DNA from: Nitratifractor sp.
GTDB lineage: Bacteria > Campylobacterota > Campylobacteria > Campylobacterales > Sulfurovaceae
Assembly: GCA_015488535.1 (NCBI GenBank)
Contig: WFNP01000050.1
Location: forward strand, 1-32,875
Reading direction: 5' to 3'
Length of the DNA: 32,875 nt
The notes beneath the pieces were generated by a model that saw only the letters and a program-made list of their open reading frames with translations, was not told the origin of the DNA and did no database searches. Made by a program: the position numbers and the translations under genes. Positions 4,031 to 10,845 of this stretch are shown one piece after another (within the stretch, counting starts at the first letter, position 1; each line of letters begins with the position of its first letter).

Positions 4031-4816
4031 TTATCCGAATTTTCCGGTAATATACTGCTCTGTCATATCCTCTTTTGGAGTGATAAACAGCTCTTCTGTT
4101 ACTCCCATCTCTATCAAATCACCCATATACATAAATGCAGTATAATCACTAATTCTTGCAGCTTGTTGCATATTGTGTGTAACTATGGCAATAGTTACTT
4201 TATCTTTTAGTTTAAGCACAAGCTCTTCTATTGATTGGGTTGAAATCGGGTCAAGTGCTGAGGTTGGCTCATCAAATAGTAAAACTTCCGGTTCTACTGC
4301 TATGGCTCTGGCAATACAGAGTCTTTGCTGTTGCCCACCAGATAGAGCTGAAGCTGGATTTTTTAGTCTATCTCCTACCTCATTCCACAAAGCTGAATCT
4401 TTTAAAGCAGTCTCTACTCTACCTTCAAGCTCACTTTTGGATTTAATACCTTGAAGCCTTAATCCGTAAGCTACATTATCAAATATACTCATTGGAAAAG
4501 GTGTTGGCTTTTGAAAAATCATACCTACTCTTGTGCGTAAAGCTATTAAATCCTCTTTTTTACCCAATATATTTTTACCATCAAGCAGTATCTCTCCATC
4601 ATATCTATTTCCAGGATACAAATCATGCATTCTATTAAAACATCTCAAAAGTGTAGTCTTACCACAACCGCTGGGACCAATCAGTGCTGTTACTGCATTT
4701 TTGCCAATTGGCATATTTATCTTTTTTAGATTTGGCTTATCAGCTCCGGCGTATGTAAAACTGAAATTTTTAACCTCTATAATATGCTCTTCTTTTACTT
4801 CACAAACAGTTGCCAC
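4031..4816 (-). CDS. pstB: Phosphate ABC transporter ATP-binding protein PstB
   Basis: The ATPase subunit of the high-affinity phosphate importer PstSCAB, about 261 residues. Walker A is GPSGCGKTT (about 47-55), the Q-loop lies in [17 protein letters not shown], the signature is LSGGQQQRL (about 158), Walker B is [13 protein letters not shown] (about 178) and the switch His is in VTHNMQQA. The [11 protein letters not shown] and YDGEILLDG segments are PstB-specific. The frame is open upstream into pstA, but I choose the GTG at 4816. It lies three bases after the pstA stop with GGAG ten bases before it, and it gives the normal PstB length. Last gene of the pst operon. Confidence 0.95.
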
Positions 4817-4818
4817 GA

Positions 4819-5667
4819 CTATTTTTCTCCTTTTTTCTTTCTTATTAAAAATCTGGCTGTAATATTGGCACCCAATACAAACAGAGCCAAAATGAGTGCT
4901 GCTGACCATCCCATATCTATCCAATCTTCATAAGGACTTGTAGCATAATTGAACATTGTAACAGTCAAAGATGCAATAGGCTTATTTAAATCTGTGCTAA
5001 AGAAATTGTTACTAAATGATGTAAAGAGTAACGGTGCAGTCTCACCTGCAATTCTTGCAATTGATAATAGTATTCCAGTTACCAATCCACTCTTTGCACC
5101 TCTATATACCACTTGAATTATCATTTTATATTTTGGAGCTCCAAGAGCAACTGCTGCTTCTCTTAGACTTCCCGGGACCAATTGGAGCATATCATCAGTG
5201 GTTCTTAAAACTATTGGTATCATCATAATAGCTAGTGCAATAATTCCAGCCCAACCGCTAAAATGTCCCATAGGTGCTACCACAATAGCATATACAAATG
5301 CACCTATTACAATACTTGGAGTACTCATCATAATATCTGATATATCTCTAACTAATTTAGCAAGTTTTCCATTTCTGCCGCCATACTCACTAAGATAGGT
5401 CCCTGCCAATACTCCAACCGGCACACCGATTAATGAAGCTCCGGCCACCAAAATAAGCTGACCAACCAGTGCGTTTCTCAATCCACTCTCAGCTCTTCCC
5501 GGAGGTGCCATATCATATATAAAAGTGTGCAAATTCAAAGCAGTAAAACCTTTATAAAAAAGCACTCCAAGTATCCAAAAAAGTGCTGCTATCCCTATAA
5601 ATGAAGCTATGAATGAAAGAGCTGTAATAATCTTGTCTGTTAATACTCTTCTATCTTGTCTTGTCAT
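4819..5667 (-). CDS. pstA: Phosphate ABC transporter permease PstA
   Basis: An inner-membrane permease of 282 residues that forms the phosphate channel with PstC. An N-terminal helix (about 13-38) is followed by the binding-protein-dependent transport domain. The cytoplasmic coupling loop [15 protein letters not shown] begins at 169. The [13 protein letters not shown] segment near 204-216 carries the conserved Arg and Glu of Pst permeases. The ATG overlaps the pstC stop by four bases (ATGA), with GGAGAAGAAA upstream, so the two permeases are translationally coupled. Confidence 0.95.
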
Positions 5668-6527
5668 ATTTTCTTCTCCTGGACTCTTTTAAGAAAGAGA
5701 AATTTAGCTATTGCTATAACTGTAAAGCTAATTACCAAAAGGATTAATGCTAAATAAAATAGACTTGAATAATAAAGATCAGTATCTGCTTCTGTAAATT
5801 CATTAGCCAAAGTTACAGGGATACTTGTAGCTGCTTCAAATAGTGAATGAGGCACTTTATGGGCATTACCCATTACAAAGGTTACCGCCATTGTCTCTCC
5901 TATTGCTCTACCAAGAGCTAATATAATTGAGCCTATAATTCCACTCTTTACATAAGGAATTACTACATCTTTAAGCACTTCCCATCTGGTAGCTCCCATA
6001 CCATAAGCTGACTCTTTTAAAATATCCGGAGTAGTCTTCATAGCATCTCTAGTAATTGCTGCCATAAATGGAATTATCATAATTGATAATACCACTCCGG
6101 CTGTGGCAAGTCCAAGCCCACTACCTCCCCATATATCTTTTAGGATAGGAGCCAAGTAAAAAAGACCCCACATACCATAAATGATAGATGGAATTGCAGC
6201 CAACAACTCTACTGCCATACCTACAATTGCAGCTACAAGTGGCGAAGCCAATTCACTCAAAAATATAGCAATACCAATAGCAATGGGAGTAGCAATAAGC
6301 ATAGCAATAGCCGTAGATACTATTGAGCCGTAAATTGCAGGATATCCGCCAAATATATCCATATTTGGAGCCCATCTGGTATTGGTAAGAAATTGCAGAC
6401 CAAAAGCATCTATTGCAGGTTTTGCCTCTTTGAAAAGCACAATAAACAGAGCCACCAATACAACCAATACAGTAATAGCAAATATTCTGGAAGTATTCAA
6501 AAAGAGTGAATCCAAAAATTTATCCAC
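5664..6527 (-). CDS. pstC: Phosphate ABC transporter permease PstC
   Basis: The partner permease of PstA, 287 residues with about six membrane helices. The first helix is at 14-32 and the transport domain starts near 65. The coupling loop KESAYGMGATRWEVLKDV starts at 171, and LGRAIGETMAV (205-215) holds the conserved Arg207 and Glu211. The start is a GTG preceded by AAAGGAA at good spacing. A 150-base gap with a hairpin separates it from pstS upstream, consistent with higher pstS expression than the rest of the operon. Confidence 0.95.
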   Translation of the reverse strand: MDKFLDSLFLNTSRIFAITVLVVLVALFIVLFKEAKPAIDAFGLQFLTNTRWAPNMDIFGGYPAIYGSIVSTAIAMLIATPIAIGIAIFLSELASPLVAAIVGMAVELLAAIPSIIYGMWGLFYLAPILKDIWGGSGLGLATAGVVLSIMIIPFMAAITRDAMKTTPDILKESAYGMGATRWEVLKDVVIPYVKSGIIGSIILALGRAIGETMAVTFVMGNAHKVPHSLFEAATSIPVTLANEFTEADTDLYYSSLFYLALILLVISFTVIAIAKFLFLKRVQEKKI

Positions 6528-6638
6528 TTATATTCCTTTGAAAATATTTTTATAAGGATAGAGTGAGCCTTTATCTCATCTCTTTTAGATAATAAATTTA
6601 AATTTATCATCTGAAAAAAATGTAAAATGTAGAGATTG

Positions 6639-6663
6639 GGAGCCAACTTATAAAAATGGCTCC
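6639..6663 (-). terminator. Hairpin between pstS and pstC
   Basis: Seven-base perfect arms (GGAGCCA and TGGCTCC) surround an 11-base A/T loop, 15 bases downstream of the pstS stop. On the minus strand the run of seven Ts comes only after about 18 bases, so full intrinsic termination is doubtful. A partial attenuator or mRNA-end stabiliser that leaves more pstS than pstCAB transcript is the likelier role. Confidence 0.5.
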
Positions 6664-6677
6664 ACAAACTCTATTAT

Positions 6678-7673
6678 TTAAAAGATACCGTTACTTTTCC
6701 AGTAAGCTCTAATCATATCTTTTGTCTCTTTTGGTAATGGGATATATCCAAGCTTTTTAGCTGTCTCATCTCCATTTTTAAAGGCATAATCAAAGAATTT
6801 TGTTACCTCTTTATCTTTGGCTTTTGCTTCTCTTGGAAGTAAAATAAATGTAGCTGCTACAATTGGATAACTATCATCACCCGGTTGAAGAGCAAGGATT
6901 TGATAAAAGTGCTTTTTTGCTGTCCATTTTGCATGTTTTGCAGCTGCTTTGAAATTATCTTCTGTCGGAGATACCCATTTACCGCTTTTAGTCTTTAAAA
7001 CTGCTGCAGAGAATTTATTTTTAAGTTTATAAGCATACTCTACATAACCAATACTATATGGATTTTGCTTAATTAGAGATGATACACCCTCATTTCCTTT
7101 ACCGCCTAAGCCTACTGGCCAATCAAGAGCTTTTCCTATACCGATATTATTAGCCCAATCACTACTTGCATGACTTAGATAGTAACTGAAATTGAATGTA
7201 GTTCCACTACCATCAGCTCTGTGGCATACTATAATTTTTTTATGAGGAAGTTTTAGATTTGGATTATCTTCAGCAATTGCTTTATCATCCCAAAATTTTA
7301 TTTTACCCATAAAGATAGCTGCCAAATCTTTGTTTTCAAGTTTAAGCTTCATATCACCAATACCAGGGATATTATAAGCTGCTACGATAGAACCGATAAC
7401 TGCCGGGAATTGATACAGACCTTTTTTATCAAGTTTTCTAGGTTTAAGTGGCTTATCACTTGCACCAAAATCTACTACTCTAGCACTGATTTGCTTGATA
7501 CCGCCACCTGAGCCGATAGATTGATAATTTACTCTGTTACCTGTAGCTTTTTGGAAACTATATGCCCAATCAAAATATAGAGGTGCCGGGAATGATGCTC
7601 CTGCTCCATTGATATCATAAGCACTTGCAGATACTGCTGCCAAAGCAGCCAACGCTAATAGTGATTTTTTCAT
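6678..7673 (-). CDS. pstS: Periplasmic phosphate-binding protein PstS
   Basis: The substrate-binding protein of the Pst importer, 331 residues. A signal peptide covers 1-18 (MKKSLLALAALAAVSASA). Phosphate-binding segments follow in the usual order: GAGASFPAPLYFDW (23-36), GSGGGIKQI (54-62), VDFGASDKPL (67-76) and RADGSGTTF (152-160). There is no lipobox, so it is predicted to be soluble in the periplasm. AGGAG lies five bases or so before the ATG. It is first in pstSCAB and sits directly behind a Pho-box promoter, so phosphate starvation should induce it. Confidence 0.96.
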   Translation of the reverse strand: MKKSLLALAALAAVSASAYDINGAGASFPAPLYFDWAYSFQKATGNRVNYQSIGSGGGIKQISARVVDFGASDKPLKPRKLDKKGLYQFPAVIGSIVAAYNIPGIGDMKLKLENKDLAAIFMGKIKFWDDKAIAEDNPNLKLPHKKIIVCHRADGSGTTFNFSYYLSHASSDWANNIGIGKALDWPVGLGGKGNEGVSSLIKQNPYSIGYVEYAYKLKNKFSAAVLKTKSGKWVSPTEDNFKAAAKHAKWTAKKHFYQILALQPGDDSYPIVAATFILLPREAKAKDKEVTKFFDYAFKNGDETAKKLGYIPLPKETKDMIRAYWKSNGIF

Positions 7674-7675
7674 CT

Positions 7676-7699
7676 TGTAACTCCTGTTTTTTAGTTACA
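7676..7699 (-). promoter_or_regulatory. Inverted repeat over the pstS ribosome binding site
   Basis: Seven-base perfect arms TGTAACT and AGTTACA flank the stretch that contains the pstS Shine-Dalgarno AGGAG, ending two bases before the ATG. If transcription starts about seven bases after the -10 at 7703-7708, the upstream arm is only partly transcribed. The repeat may therefore act as DNA rather than as an RNA hairpin. The TGTAAC core also matches the Pho-box half-site. Confidence 0.4.
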
Positions 7700-7702
7700 G
7701 GA

Positions 7703-7736
7703 ATTGTAGGATAGAAAAGATACAGTTTGGTTACAA
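7703..7736 (-). promoter_or_regulatory. Pho-box promoter of pstSCAB
   Basis: Reading the minus strand, two seven-base direct repeats TTGTAAC (7736-7730) and CTGTATC (7725-7719) are four bases apart. Ten bases later comes the -10 hexamer TACAAT (7708-7703). The 11-base period and the place of the repeats in the -35 region are the architecture of PhoB-activated promoters. The same arrangement faces phoU at 8022-8055. The binding factor is inferred to be the PhoB-like regulator encoded next door. Confidence 0.72.
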
Positions 7737-8021
7737 ATACTGTTGCTATCTTAATCTCATCTAACTCTTTATCTCCAGCTATAAGCCCCTTTGAGATAAT
7801 TTATCTTCGATTTTTCTTCTGTCAAACGGAAAATTCGGATACTCTTTATACTGATATGGTAAATCCTGATAGTGTTATAAATAGCTTGAATAATTATAAC
7901 ATTTTATGTAAAGTTTATAGAGCTTATTTATAACAATCACTTCCCTATCCTGTTATTTATCCTCTTGAAAGCGATTGCAAATTTCAAACTAACCTAATTA
8001 TTACATCATAAATATACTTCA
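7737..8021. other. Spacer between the two divergent Pho promoters
   Basis: About 285 bases between the pstS and phoU promoters. An open frame (7727-7933) has no ribosome site, begins inside the pstS Pho box and has no recognisable protein content, so I do not call it. No further Pho box, RNA gene or terminator is seen. Confidence 0.4.
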
Positions 8022-8055
8022 TTGTAACAGAACTGTAACCATTTTCATATATACT
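8022..8055 (+). promoter_or_regulatory. Pho-box promoter of phoU-phoB-phoR
   Basis: Direct repeats TTGTAAC (8022-8028) and CTGTAAC (8033-8039) are four bases apart and are followed by ten bases and the -10 hexamer TATACT (8050-8055). Spacing is identical to the pstS promoter on the other strand. The downstream operon encodes the likely binding protein, so this would be an autoregulatory loop. Confidence 0.72.
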
Positions 8056-8099
8056 TATATGTAAAATACTTTTCATATTATAAATAAGGATGATTACAG

Positions 8100-8771
8100 A
8101 TGTTATCTAGTTTCAATCAAAAATTAGGCGAAATTGACAATATGATGAAAGAGTTTATATCCAAACTGATAAAAGCTCAGGAGCTATGTCATCAGGGATA
8201 TACCCAGTCAGATACAGATATTTTAGAGAGTGCAAAAGATACACTCAAAGGTTACACAAACAGTGCCAATGAGATAGATAATGAGATAATAAAAACACTC
8301 GCTCTCTATGGTCCTGAAGCAGGAAACCTCAGAGAGATGGTAGGATATCTCAAAATTACAAACGAATTGGTGCTGACAGCAGAAAATATCATATCATATG
8401 CAAAATCCAATAAAATATTAATCACCAATGACTTTGGCATAGATAAGATGCCTTCAGGCTTGGATTCACTTCATAAAAGTGCCTTGAACTCTTTGAAATA
8501 TGTAGTAGAGATGTTTACAAGAGAAATAAGTGAAGAAAAGACCAGAGAGCTATACCGTTCTATCAAGGTAGAGGAGTCCAAATCTGATGATTTGCACTCT
8601 ATCATCCAAAAAGAGCTCTCAGAGATAATATGCAAAACTGATATAGACCCTATAAATTATATGACCACACTCAAACTATCCAGAAAACTAGAGCATATAA
8701 GTGATCATACCAACAATATAGCCAAGCTTATGCTATTTATCAAAGTAGGCGGAGAGATGGAGATATACTGA
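8100..8771 (+). CDS. phoU: Phosphate signalling protein PhoU
   Basis: A 223-residue cytoplasmic all-alpha protein of the PhoU family, which links Pst transporter state to PhoR kinase activity and restrains phosphate uptake. The sequence shows the paired three-helix organisation, with amphipathic helices such as FNQKLGEIDNMMKEFISKLIKAQEL at the N-terminus. The C-terminal half has KLSRKLEHISDHTNNIAKLMLF, the typical RxLEHIxDHxxNIAE-like metal-binding helix (His696-type numbering not assigned). AAGGATGA lies before the ATG. Its TGA overlaps the phoB ATG (TGATG). Being in the regulator operon rather than behind pstB differs from the enterobacterial order. Confidence 0.88.
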   Translation: MLSSFNQKLGEIDNMMKEFISKLIKAQELCHQGYTQSDTDILESAKDTLKGYTNSANEIDNEIIKTLALYGPEAGNLREMVGYLKITNELVLTAENIISYAKSNKILITNDFGIDKMPSGLDSLHKSALNSLKYVVEMFTREISEEKTRELYRSIKVEESKSDDLHSIIQKELSEIICKTDIDPINYMTTLKLSRKLEHISDHTNNIAKLMLFIKVGGEMEIY

Positions 8772-9439
8772 TGGCTTTGGTTGTCGTCATAGAAGATGAG
8801 AGTGATTTACTTGAACTTCTGGAGTATCATCTGCAAAAAGAGGGATATGAAGTATTTGCTTCACTCTCTACTATGCCTGTAGAGAGACTCCTTGAAGAAG
8901 AGACTCCCGATTTGATGATAGTAGATAGAAATCTGCCCGGAGTAGAGGGTAGTGAATTTGTCCTCTCTTTGAGAAATAGAGGGATAGATATACCAGTAAT
9001 ATATCTTAGTGCCAAATCATCTGAGAGTGATATAGATGAAGGCTTTTTAAGAGGAGCAGATGACTATGTAACCAAGCCTTTTAATTACAGAGAGCTTATG
9101 CACAGAGTCAAAGCAGTATTAAACAGATGCAAACCGCAACTCAAAGATATCATAAAATACAAAGATATAGAGATACACCAAAAATCAAGAGAAGTATATA
9201 TTGGCGGTAAAAAAATATCACTGACCAAATTGGAGTATGACTTGCTTTTGGAACTTTATAACAATCTAAATATAGTACTATCCAGAGACTATCTTTTAGA
9301 CAAAGTGTGGAATAATCCCGAAGATCATCAGGCAAAAACAGTAAATGTAGCTATCAACAGACTAAAAGAAAAAATAGACCCCGATAAAAATAAAAACTAT
9401 ATAGTTTCAATCAGAGGAATAGGATACAAAATGGTATGA
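8771..9439 (+). CDS. phoB: OmpR/PhoB-family phosphate response regulator
   Basis: A 222-residue DNA-binding response regulator. The receiver domain (1-115) has the acidic pair Glu8/Asp9, phospho-acceptor Asp52 (MIVDRNLPG), Ser80 as the switch residue and Lys102 in TKPF. A winged-helix domain (about 126-222) shows LTKLEYDLLLELYNN, LSRDYLLDKVW and the recognition helix region AKTVNVAINRLKEKI, ending in the usual IRGIGYKMV. Its operon, with phoU before and a histidine kinase after, supports the phosphate assignment. The start overlaps the phoU stop and the stop overlaps the phoR ATG by four bases (ATGA). Confidence 0.9.
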   Translation: MALVVVIEDESDLLELLEYHLQKEGYEVFASLSTMPVERLLEEETPDLMIVDRNLPGVEGSEFVLSLRNRGIDIPVIYLSAKSSESDIDEGFLRGADDYVTKPFNYRELMHRVKAVLNRCKPQLKDIIKYKDIEIHQKSREVYIGGKKISLTKLEYDLLLELYNNLNIVLSRDYLLDKVWNNPEDHQAKTVNVAINRLKEKIDPDKNKNYIVSIRGIGYKMV

Positions 9440-10845
9440 AAAAGCACTACAAACTCTCACAAATATTTTTTATAAACTTCATAATACTCTTTACCTCCAC
9501 TTTGGCAATAAGCTCTCTTATAATATATTACTCAATTTTAAATATCGAAAAGGAGCAATACTCCAGACAGCTTCGCAGTGAAATAGCCTATATTACAAAC
9601 GAATTAAGTCAGGGAAAATCTCTCCTTGAAGCTACACAGGATATCAGTAAAATTACAGGAAGTAAAATTCGCTCTACTCTGATAGCCAGAGACGGAACTC
9701 CTCTGTATGACAGTGAAGCAGATGTCAAACAGATGGAAAACCACTCAAACCGTCCAGAGGTGATGCAGGCATGGAGAGAGGGCTTTGGCACATCAGTAAG
9801 ATACTCCAAAACTATAGGTAATGACAGAATATATGCTGCAAAAATAATCAACTGGAACGGAAAAAAAGATATCTTGAGACTCTCTTTGCCACTTAACAGT
9901 GTGATGAGTGATTTTACTACACTGTGGAAGAGACTCTTTATTGTATTTGTAATTGCATTGATTATAGCTTTGATTATAAGTTATATCATACAAAAAAGCA
10001 TAGGCAATGAACTGGATAAAATCACAAACTATCTGTCCATGATAGCTGATAAAAAATACTCTGCCTCTTTTAAGGCTGGATTTTCTCAAGAGTTTACAGA
10101 TATTTCTTATCTATTGAAAAAACTCTCCAAAAGGCTGGAAAAGAGTGACAGAAAAAGACGAAAATATACAGCCAAACTCAAACTGGCAAATAAACAAAGA
10201 GGTGATATCATATCAGCAATCGGACATGAATTCAAAAATCCAATAGCTGCAGTAATAGGATATGCCCAGACACTCAATGAAGATGATGAGATACCTCTTG
10301 CTATACGCAAAAAATTTCTGCAACGAATAGAGCAAAACAGCAAAGTTATAGATAATATGATAGACAGACTGGCAATCATAAGCAAACTAGAAAACAGTGA
10401 AGTAGAGCTAAAAAAAGAACAGTTTTGTATTTGCGAAGTGATAAATGATGCTGTAGCAACCATCCAAAAAAAGTATATCGATAGAAAAATCATTGTAAAT
10501 TGTGAACATCTTAAATTGATGGCAGACAGAGTATTGATATCGCTCTTAGTCATTAATATCATGGAAAATGCTCTAAAATACTCGGAAGATGAAATAGATA
10601 TTACATTAAAAAATTCAAAATTAGAAATAGCAGACAAAGGTATAGGCATAAAAGAAGATGAACTAAAAAATATTCACAAAAAATTCTATAGAGTAAATAA
10701 AAACAGTTGGAACAACTCTTTGGGATTGGGCTTGGCAATAGTAGATTATATTGTCAAACTTCATAATATAGATATGGATATAAAATCCAAAATAGGGGTT
10801 GGAACTACAATCACTATAGATTTTAAAAATATAGCTTTAGACTAA
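9436..10845 (+). CDS. phoR: PhoR-like sensor histidine kinase
   Basis: A 469-residue membrane sensor kinase. Transmembrane helices lie at about 10-33 and 166-186, enclosing a periplasmic sensor of about 130 residues with RDGTPLYDSEADVKQMENHSNRPE, a segment common in PhoR-type sensors. The dimerisation domain contains the phosphorylated His264 in AIGHEFKNPIAAVIGYAQTL. The ATPase domain has the N box NIMENALKYS (Asn378), G1 box DKGIGIKEDEL (400-410), F box FYRV and G2 box GLGLAIV (430-436). The linker 190-250 is charged and helical, perhaps a degenerate HAMP. It should phosphorylate the regulator encoded just before it, and PhoU and Pst probably control it. Confidence 0.88.
   Translation: MKKHYKLSQIFFINFIILFTSTLAISSLIIYYSILNIEKEQYSRQLRSEIAYITNELSQGKSLLEATQDISKITGSKIRSTLIARDGTPLYDSEADVKQMENHSNRPEVMQAWREGFGTSVRYSKTIGNDRIYAAKIINWNGKKDILRLSLPLNSVMSDFTTLWKRLFIVFVIALIIALIISYIIQKSIGNELDKITNYLSMIADKKYSASFKAGFSQEFTDISYLLKKLSKRLEKSDRKRRKYTAKLKLANKQRGDIISAIGHEFKNPIAAVIGYAQTLNEDDEIPLAIRKKFLQRIEQNSKVIDNMIDRLAIISKLENSEVELKKEQFCICEVINDAVATIQKKYIDRKIIVNCEHLKLMADRVLISLLVINIMENALKYSEDEIDITLKNSKLEIADKGIGIKEDELKNIHKKFYRVNKNSWNNSLGLGLAIVDYIVKLHNIDMDIKSKIGVGTTITIDFKNIALD

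Follow-up and report, generated by a model that had tools for sequence, protein, structure and literature searches.

Probable variant Pho boxes facing pstSCAB and phoU-phoB-phoR in a Nitratifractor genome, within a unit that looks laterally acquired

The PhoB boxes of E. coli, located in the promoters of pstS, phoA, phoE and phoB, are composed of 7-bp CTGTCAT direct repeats with a 4-bp spacer, lie 10 bp from the -10 element and are not accompanied by a -35 element. The pstS promoter of E. coli K-12 contains the half-sites CTGTCAT and CTGTCAC, with TATTTT located 10 bp downstream of the second box. In Campylobacter jejuni, a member of the same phylum as the organism investigated here, the phosphate-responsive two-component system PhosR/PhosS controls pst and phoX (PMC3197622, PMC9449129). 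Our literature searches returned neither TTGTAAC Pho boxes nor Pho boxes of Campylobacterota. The repeat length, the spacer, the distance to the -10 element and the lack of a -35 element described for E. coli are all shared by two elements in the genome of Nitratifractor sp. (contig WFNP01000050.1; the window, i.e. the whole stretch of DNA analysed, comprises 32,875 nucleotides), whereas base 5 of the half-site, which is C in the E. coli repeats, is A in both of them. With a probability that we estimate at about 90%, both elements are Pho boxes for a PhoB-like regulator, activating pstSCAB and phoU-phoB-phoR in a unit that looks laterally acquired.

The minus strand carries pstS, coding for the periplasmic phosphate-binding protein (6678-7673; TIGR00975 and NF008171), the permease genes pstC (5664-6527; TIGR02138) and pstA (4819-5667; TIGR00974), and the ATPase gene pstB (4031-4816; TIGR00972), for which the start was placed at about 4816 in a frame that is open to 4924. 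All four subunits of PstSCAB exceed the curated cut-offs of these models. The plus strand carries a phoU-like gene (8100-8771), a phoB-like response regulator gene (8771-9439) and a phoR-like sensor kinase gene (9436-10845). The phoU-like product contains a PhoU domain (PF01895) above the cut-off and scores 62.7 bits with TIGR02135, for which the cut-off is 130 bits. The regulator combines a receiver (PF00072) with a winged helix (PF00486), the pair of domains that defines OmpR/PhoB response regulators, and has the recognition helix KTVNVAINRLKEKI and the wing SIRGIGYK; its best-ranked NCBIfam model is PhoB (TIGR02154), yet the score of 183 bits is below the cut-off of 296, and it is therefore named PhoB-like. 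HisKA (PF00512) and HATPase_c (PF02518) domains are present in the phoR-like product, whose best NCBIfam model is PnpS (NF046044), with phoR_proteo in third place and all of them below their cut-offs. Since the PhoB, PhoR and PhoU products score below the curated NCBIfam cut-offs, orthology to E. coli PhoB and PhoR rests on gene order and the rank of the best hits. The start of phoB overlaps the stop of phoU (TGATGG) and phoR overlaps phoB by 4 bases, so that the three genes probably form one operon.

The box on the phoU-phoB-phoR side (8022-8039, plus strand) reads TTGTAAC-AGAA-CTGTAAC, two 7-bp direct repeats with a period of 11 bp, and is followed after exactly 10 bases (CATTTTCATA) by the -10 hexamer TATACT (8050-8055), which is separated by 44 bases from the ATG of phoU at 8100. 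On the pstSCAB side, the box (7736-7719, minus strand) reads TTGTAAC-CAAA-CTGTATC, again with exactly 10 bases (TTTTCTATCC) between it and the -10 hexamer TACAAT (7708-7703), and 29 bases separate this hexamer from the ATG of pstS at 7673 on the minus strand. Both elements therefore consist of two 7-bp direct repeats 4 bp apart and stand in place of the -35 element, about 10 bp from the -10, as Pho boxes do. A TTGACA-like -35 hexamer 16-18 bp upstream of the -10 was found in neither promoter and, as expected from its absence, a scan for consensus sigma-70 promoters picked up neither pstS nor phoU. The E. coli consensus half-site CTGTCAT is absent, the half-sites being TTGTAAC, CTGTAAC and CTGTATC with A as base 5; as the Pho-box consensus varies from species to species (PMC4415409), the elements are regarded as a variant Pho box and not as non-members of this class. 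A preliminary description of this DNA had proposed two boxes of PhoB architecture facing the two operons, half-sites unlike CTGTCAT and ten-base intervals to TACAAT and TATACT, all of which direct reading confirms, with the relatives agreeing on the architecture. The circuit that it outlined also stands in so far as the operon of the regulator carries its own box, but the claimed exact duplication on the two strands does not, because 15 of the 18 bases are equal and 3 differ, the second half-sites being CTGTATC versus CTGTAAC. The 285-bp spacer between the boxes (7737-8021) is AT-rich (28% G+C), and neither an Rfam match in the gap nor a second copy in the genome was detected. A weak inverted repeat with the arm CTGTAACT (7673-7702, minus strand) surrounds the ribosome-binding site of pstS and may be due to chance, since this leader hairpin does not fold clearly better than shuffled sequences (z-score -1.3).

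Direct repeats might simply occur by chance in AT-rich intergenic DNA, with the genes read from ordinary promoters, and the window indeed has many YTGTAWC repeats if up to 3 mismatches are allowed (55 versus 36 expected). The exact sites, however, are unique: the pattern YTGTAWC-N4-YTGTAWC (YTGTAWCNNNNYTGTAWC) is found exactly twice in the genome of 1,871,039 bases, both times in the divergent gap between pstS and phoU, and its reversed-pattern control has 0 matches in the same genome. The probability that two randomly scattered matches would both land in this gap is about 5e-8, a figure computed post hoc, as the pattern had been derived from these very sites. A matrix of 34 positions, for which 75 sites from other genomes served as the training set, assigned scores of 33.3 to the phoU box and 25.2 to the pstS box, compared with a best score of 12.4 in simulated sequence (60 first-order Markov copies of the window, together about 2 Mb). 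Along with the conserved -10 spacing, the lack of a -35 element and the recurrence before phosphate genes in relatives, these results make a chance origin scarcely credible, in agreement with the preliminary judgement that chance was unlikely. Pattern-based search of the same genome revealed no further sites, the closest candidates with a correctly spaced -10 deviating by 2 mismatches that mostly affect the conserved core; thus no wider regulon follows in this genome.

Comparison across 175 genomes of the family revealed 73 sites of the form YTGTAAC-N4-YTGTAAC among the matches listed, in 53 genomes (control 18), and 128 sites of the form YTGTWAY-N4-YTGTWAY-N10-TAHAMT among the matches listed, in 94 of the 175 genomes, with 0 matches for the reversed control. 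In a count for which the -10 spacing was not imposed beforehand, a -10-like hexamer followed 41 of the 70 distinct strict boxes at offset 10, and every other offset was represented at most 3 times. Genes for porins, PstS, PstC, metallophosphoesterases or PiT transporters are preceded by 31 of the 37 distinct strict boxes with a -10 (porin cluster 20, pstS 4, pstC 3, calcineurin-like phosphoesterase 3, PiT, PF01384, 1); 2 others stand before genes for proteins of unknown function and 4 have no called gene, some of these at contig ends. The porins downstream of family boxes include Porin_O_P (L198) and Porin_5 (L229). Among strict boxes without a -10, one out of 28 precedes a phosphate-type gene, coding for a phosphate-binding-like protein. 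A location before phosphate-acquisition genes was thus found for the window and for its relatives alike, and relatives sharing the divergent layout have boxes upstream of both phoU and pstS. The 128 A/T-type matches among those listed versus 0 in the control, with the strict ones standing before phosphate genes, argue that the elements of the window are Pho boxes. In many family genomes that have pst, the box pattern finds no match in its vicinity, hence the site is either tolerant of change or located elsewhere. The preliminary description had suggested looking for the motif upstream of phosphate genes, and in the relatives it is found there, porins included; its expectation that the motif would disclose the rest of the regulon proved useful for the relatives but not for the genome itself, which shows the two sites alone.

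Several further occurrences of box-like sequences were observed in the family. A calcineurin-like phosphoesterase gene directly follows a Pho box in three cases (L187:8469-9209, L240 and L242). Its product resembles PlcP, which acts in lipid recycling under phosphate stress, and its boxed gene suggests phospholipid replacement in the family. Within one genus, CTGTAACTTTACTGTAAC is conserved about 24-26 bp upstream of the start of a cbb3-type oxidase subunit gene (ccoN-like; L045:1501, L211:2750, L210:197) with no -10 at the Pho distance, and it may belong to another regulator or be due to chance. Tandem TTGTAACAACC repeats in genome G133 (L224:2955-3292) yield four strict box matches, which look like simple repeats and not promoters. 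The congeners' own boxes use CTGTTTC and TTGTTTC half-sites (L134:7008, L132:12126). The PhosR box of C. jejuni reportedly reads GTTTC-N6-GTTTC, and the congener box TTGTTTC-N4-CTGTTTC (L134 at 7008) would fit it as a sister variant.

When repeats upstream of pstS were scored with base 5 ignored, this base was C in 34 of 36 half-sites of betaproteobacteria and A or T in all 30 half-sites of Campylobacterota; the strict pattern with a -10 had almost no matches upstream of betaproteobacterial pstS. In the family, the C/G form of the box has 3 matches (control 1) as against 128 for the A/T form among the matches listed, and base composition alone would produce roughly a threefold and not a fortyfold difference. 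In Campylobacterota, the half-site takes the form YTGT(A/T)A(C/T) and departs from the YTGTCA(C/T) of E. coli and betaproteobacteria mainly at base 5. The recognition helix contains TVDVH in all betaproteobacterial regulators aligned and TVNVA or close variants in Campylobacterota, the helix TVNVAINRLK going with A/T boxes and TVDVHIRRLR with the C boxes of E. coli and betaproteobacteria, a comparison that constitutes an association because it involves just two phylogenetic groups. Aligned to the C-terminal sequence of E. coli PhoB, the regulator of the window keeps T194, V197, R201 and R219, the base-contacting residues of the E. coli protein (PMC3973317, PMC3264566), in line with the shared TGT core, and has N, A, N and K in place of D, H, R and R at positions 196, 198, 200 and 203. 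The substitution D196N was considered as the sole cause of the change at base 5 and was dropped, since D196 of E. coli PhoB has been reported as not contributing to DNA interactions in the complex (PMC3264566). Several PhoB-like proteins of the family have Trp in place of the wing Arg219 (VWGVGYK), and one type has Ala in place of Thr194, both being base-contact positions in E. coli. What appears to be new at this locus is that the TTGTAAC spelling is common to related bacteria and is accompanied by a changed DNA-reading helix.

What the sequences show is the DNA elements together with their conservation and placement; binding, phosphorylation, activation, the response to phosphate, autoregulation and the cause of the base-5 change are matters that we infer from what is established for PhoB. 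The PhoB-like regulator (8771-9439), as a phosphorylated dimer, would bind the head-to-tail 7-bp half-sites, 11 bp apart, and, as the box occupies the place of the -35 element, the bound dimer would contact sigma-70 and recruit the polymerase to the -10 located ten bases downstream. When phosphate is scarce, PhoB would be phosphorylated by the Pst/PhoU/PhoR complex and would then activate both pstSCAB and the divergent phoU-phoB-phoR operon, the regulator boosting its own level through positive feedback on its own operon. The boxes might instead be bound by another regulator of the OmpR/PhoB family, a paralogue encoded elsewhere, with the adjacent PhoB-like protein serving other targets. Two or more PhoB-like regulators, all with similar helices, are indeed encoded near pst in several genomes of the family, and many members have two of them (L166, L167, L170, L172, L180), but both boxes flank the operon of the regulator itself and are absent elsewhere in this genome, and kin with the same layout keep phoB beside the boxes, which makes the involvement of a paralogue quite improbable.

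As regards the origin of the cluster, PstS of the window joins Nitratiruptor (support 96/92) within a 14-row clade of other families (98/94), with rows of Arcobacter, Sulfurimonas and Sulfuricurvum type, and PstB joins Hydrogenimonas (100/96); PstS and PstB of the congeners sit in the other large group of the trees. For PhoB, identity amounts to 64% with the Nitratiruptor row and to 47-48% with the congeners. The secretion-type operon next to the cluster, on the other hand, is native on this evidence, its GspE being 87% identical to that of the nearest congener (G047) and the genes following in the same order as far as gspF. The cluster (4031-10845), which groups with Nitratiruptor, Hydrogenimonas and Sulfurimonadaceae and not with its own genus, has the appearance of a self-contained module, both boxes included, that was acquired laterally. 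Vertical inheritance, with loss and replacement in other species of the genus producing the absences and differences, would agree with the patchy distribution of Pst, as PstB of at least 72% identity occurs in 5 of the 13 genomes of the genus, this one included. It is nevertheless unlikely in view of the tree positions given above, of the congeners' PstS and PstB falling elsewhere in spite of the close GspE match, and of G047, the congener closest by GspE, lacking pst, with no PstB above 38%. Lateral gain of the whole unit is the simplest reading, the direction of transfer being inferred as well. A more far-reaching reading would posit a Campylobacterota-specific Pho-box code, YTGT(A/T)A(C/T), set by D196N, H198A, R200N and R203K, and a unit that, because it takes along its transporter, its sensor, its regulator and the two boxes, passes from one family to another as a self-contained module with a regulon that in the new host consists of the unit itself alone; we advance it tentatively, as a possibility rated somewhat below even.

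The present analysis provides a tested Pho-box motif and a fixed promoter geometry for a family without a published one in the literature searched. The motif allows the phosphate regulon of many uncultured Campylobacterota to be read, comprising pst, porins, PiT and a possible lipid-recycling enzyme, and it sets up a question of protein/DNA specificity with four candidate residues and one base. Among the known loci, the phoUBR-pstS loci of Sulfuricurvum, Nitratiruptor and Arcobacter type (L090, L091, L098-L101, L129) have the same divergent order with a box facing each side, although their boxes are about 12-14 bp apart and those of the window 285 bp. In the phoE box of E. coli, CTGTAATATATCTTTAAC (CTGTAAT-N4-CTTTAAC), both half-sites carry A as base 5, as in the window, and N10 leads to TAAAAA, so that E. 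coli has the same geometry and, in phoE, this base as well; phoE is, however, a variant among C-type boxes, whereas in Campylobacterota the A/T form is the rule. The label "non-enterobacterial" given to the boxes earlier is consequently apt for base 5, which is A or T instead of C, and not for the TGT core or the spacings (11 bp and N10), which E. coli shares. In kind, the locus is ordinary, representing a PhoB operator of known type with a lineage-specific spelling in what is probably a portable module.
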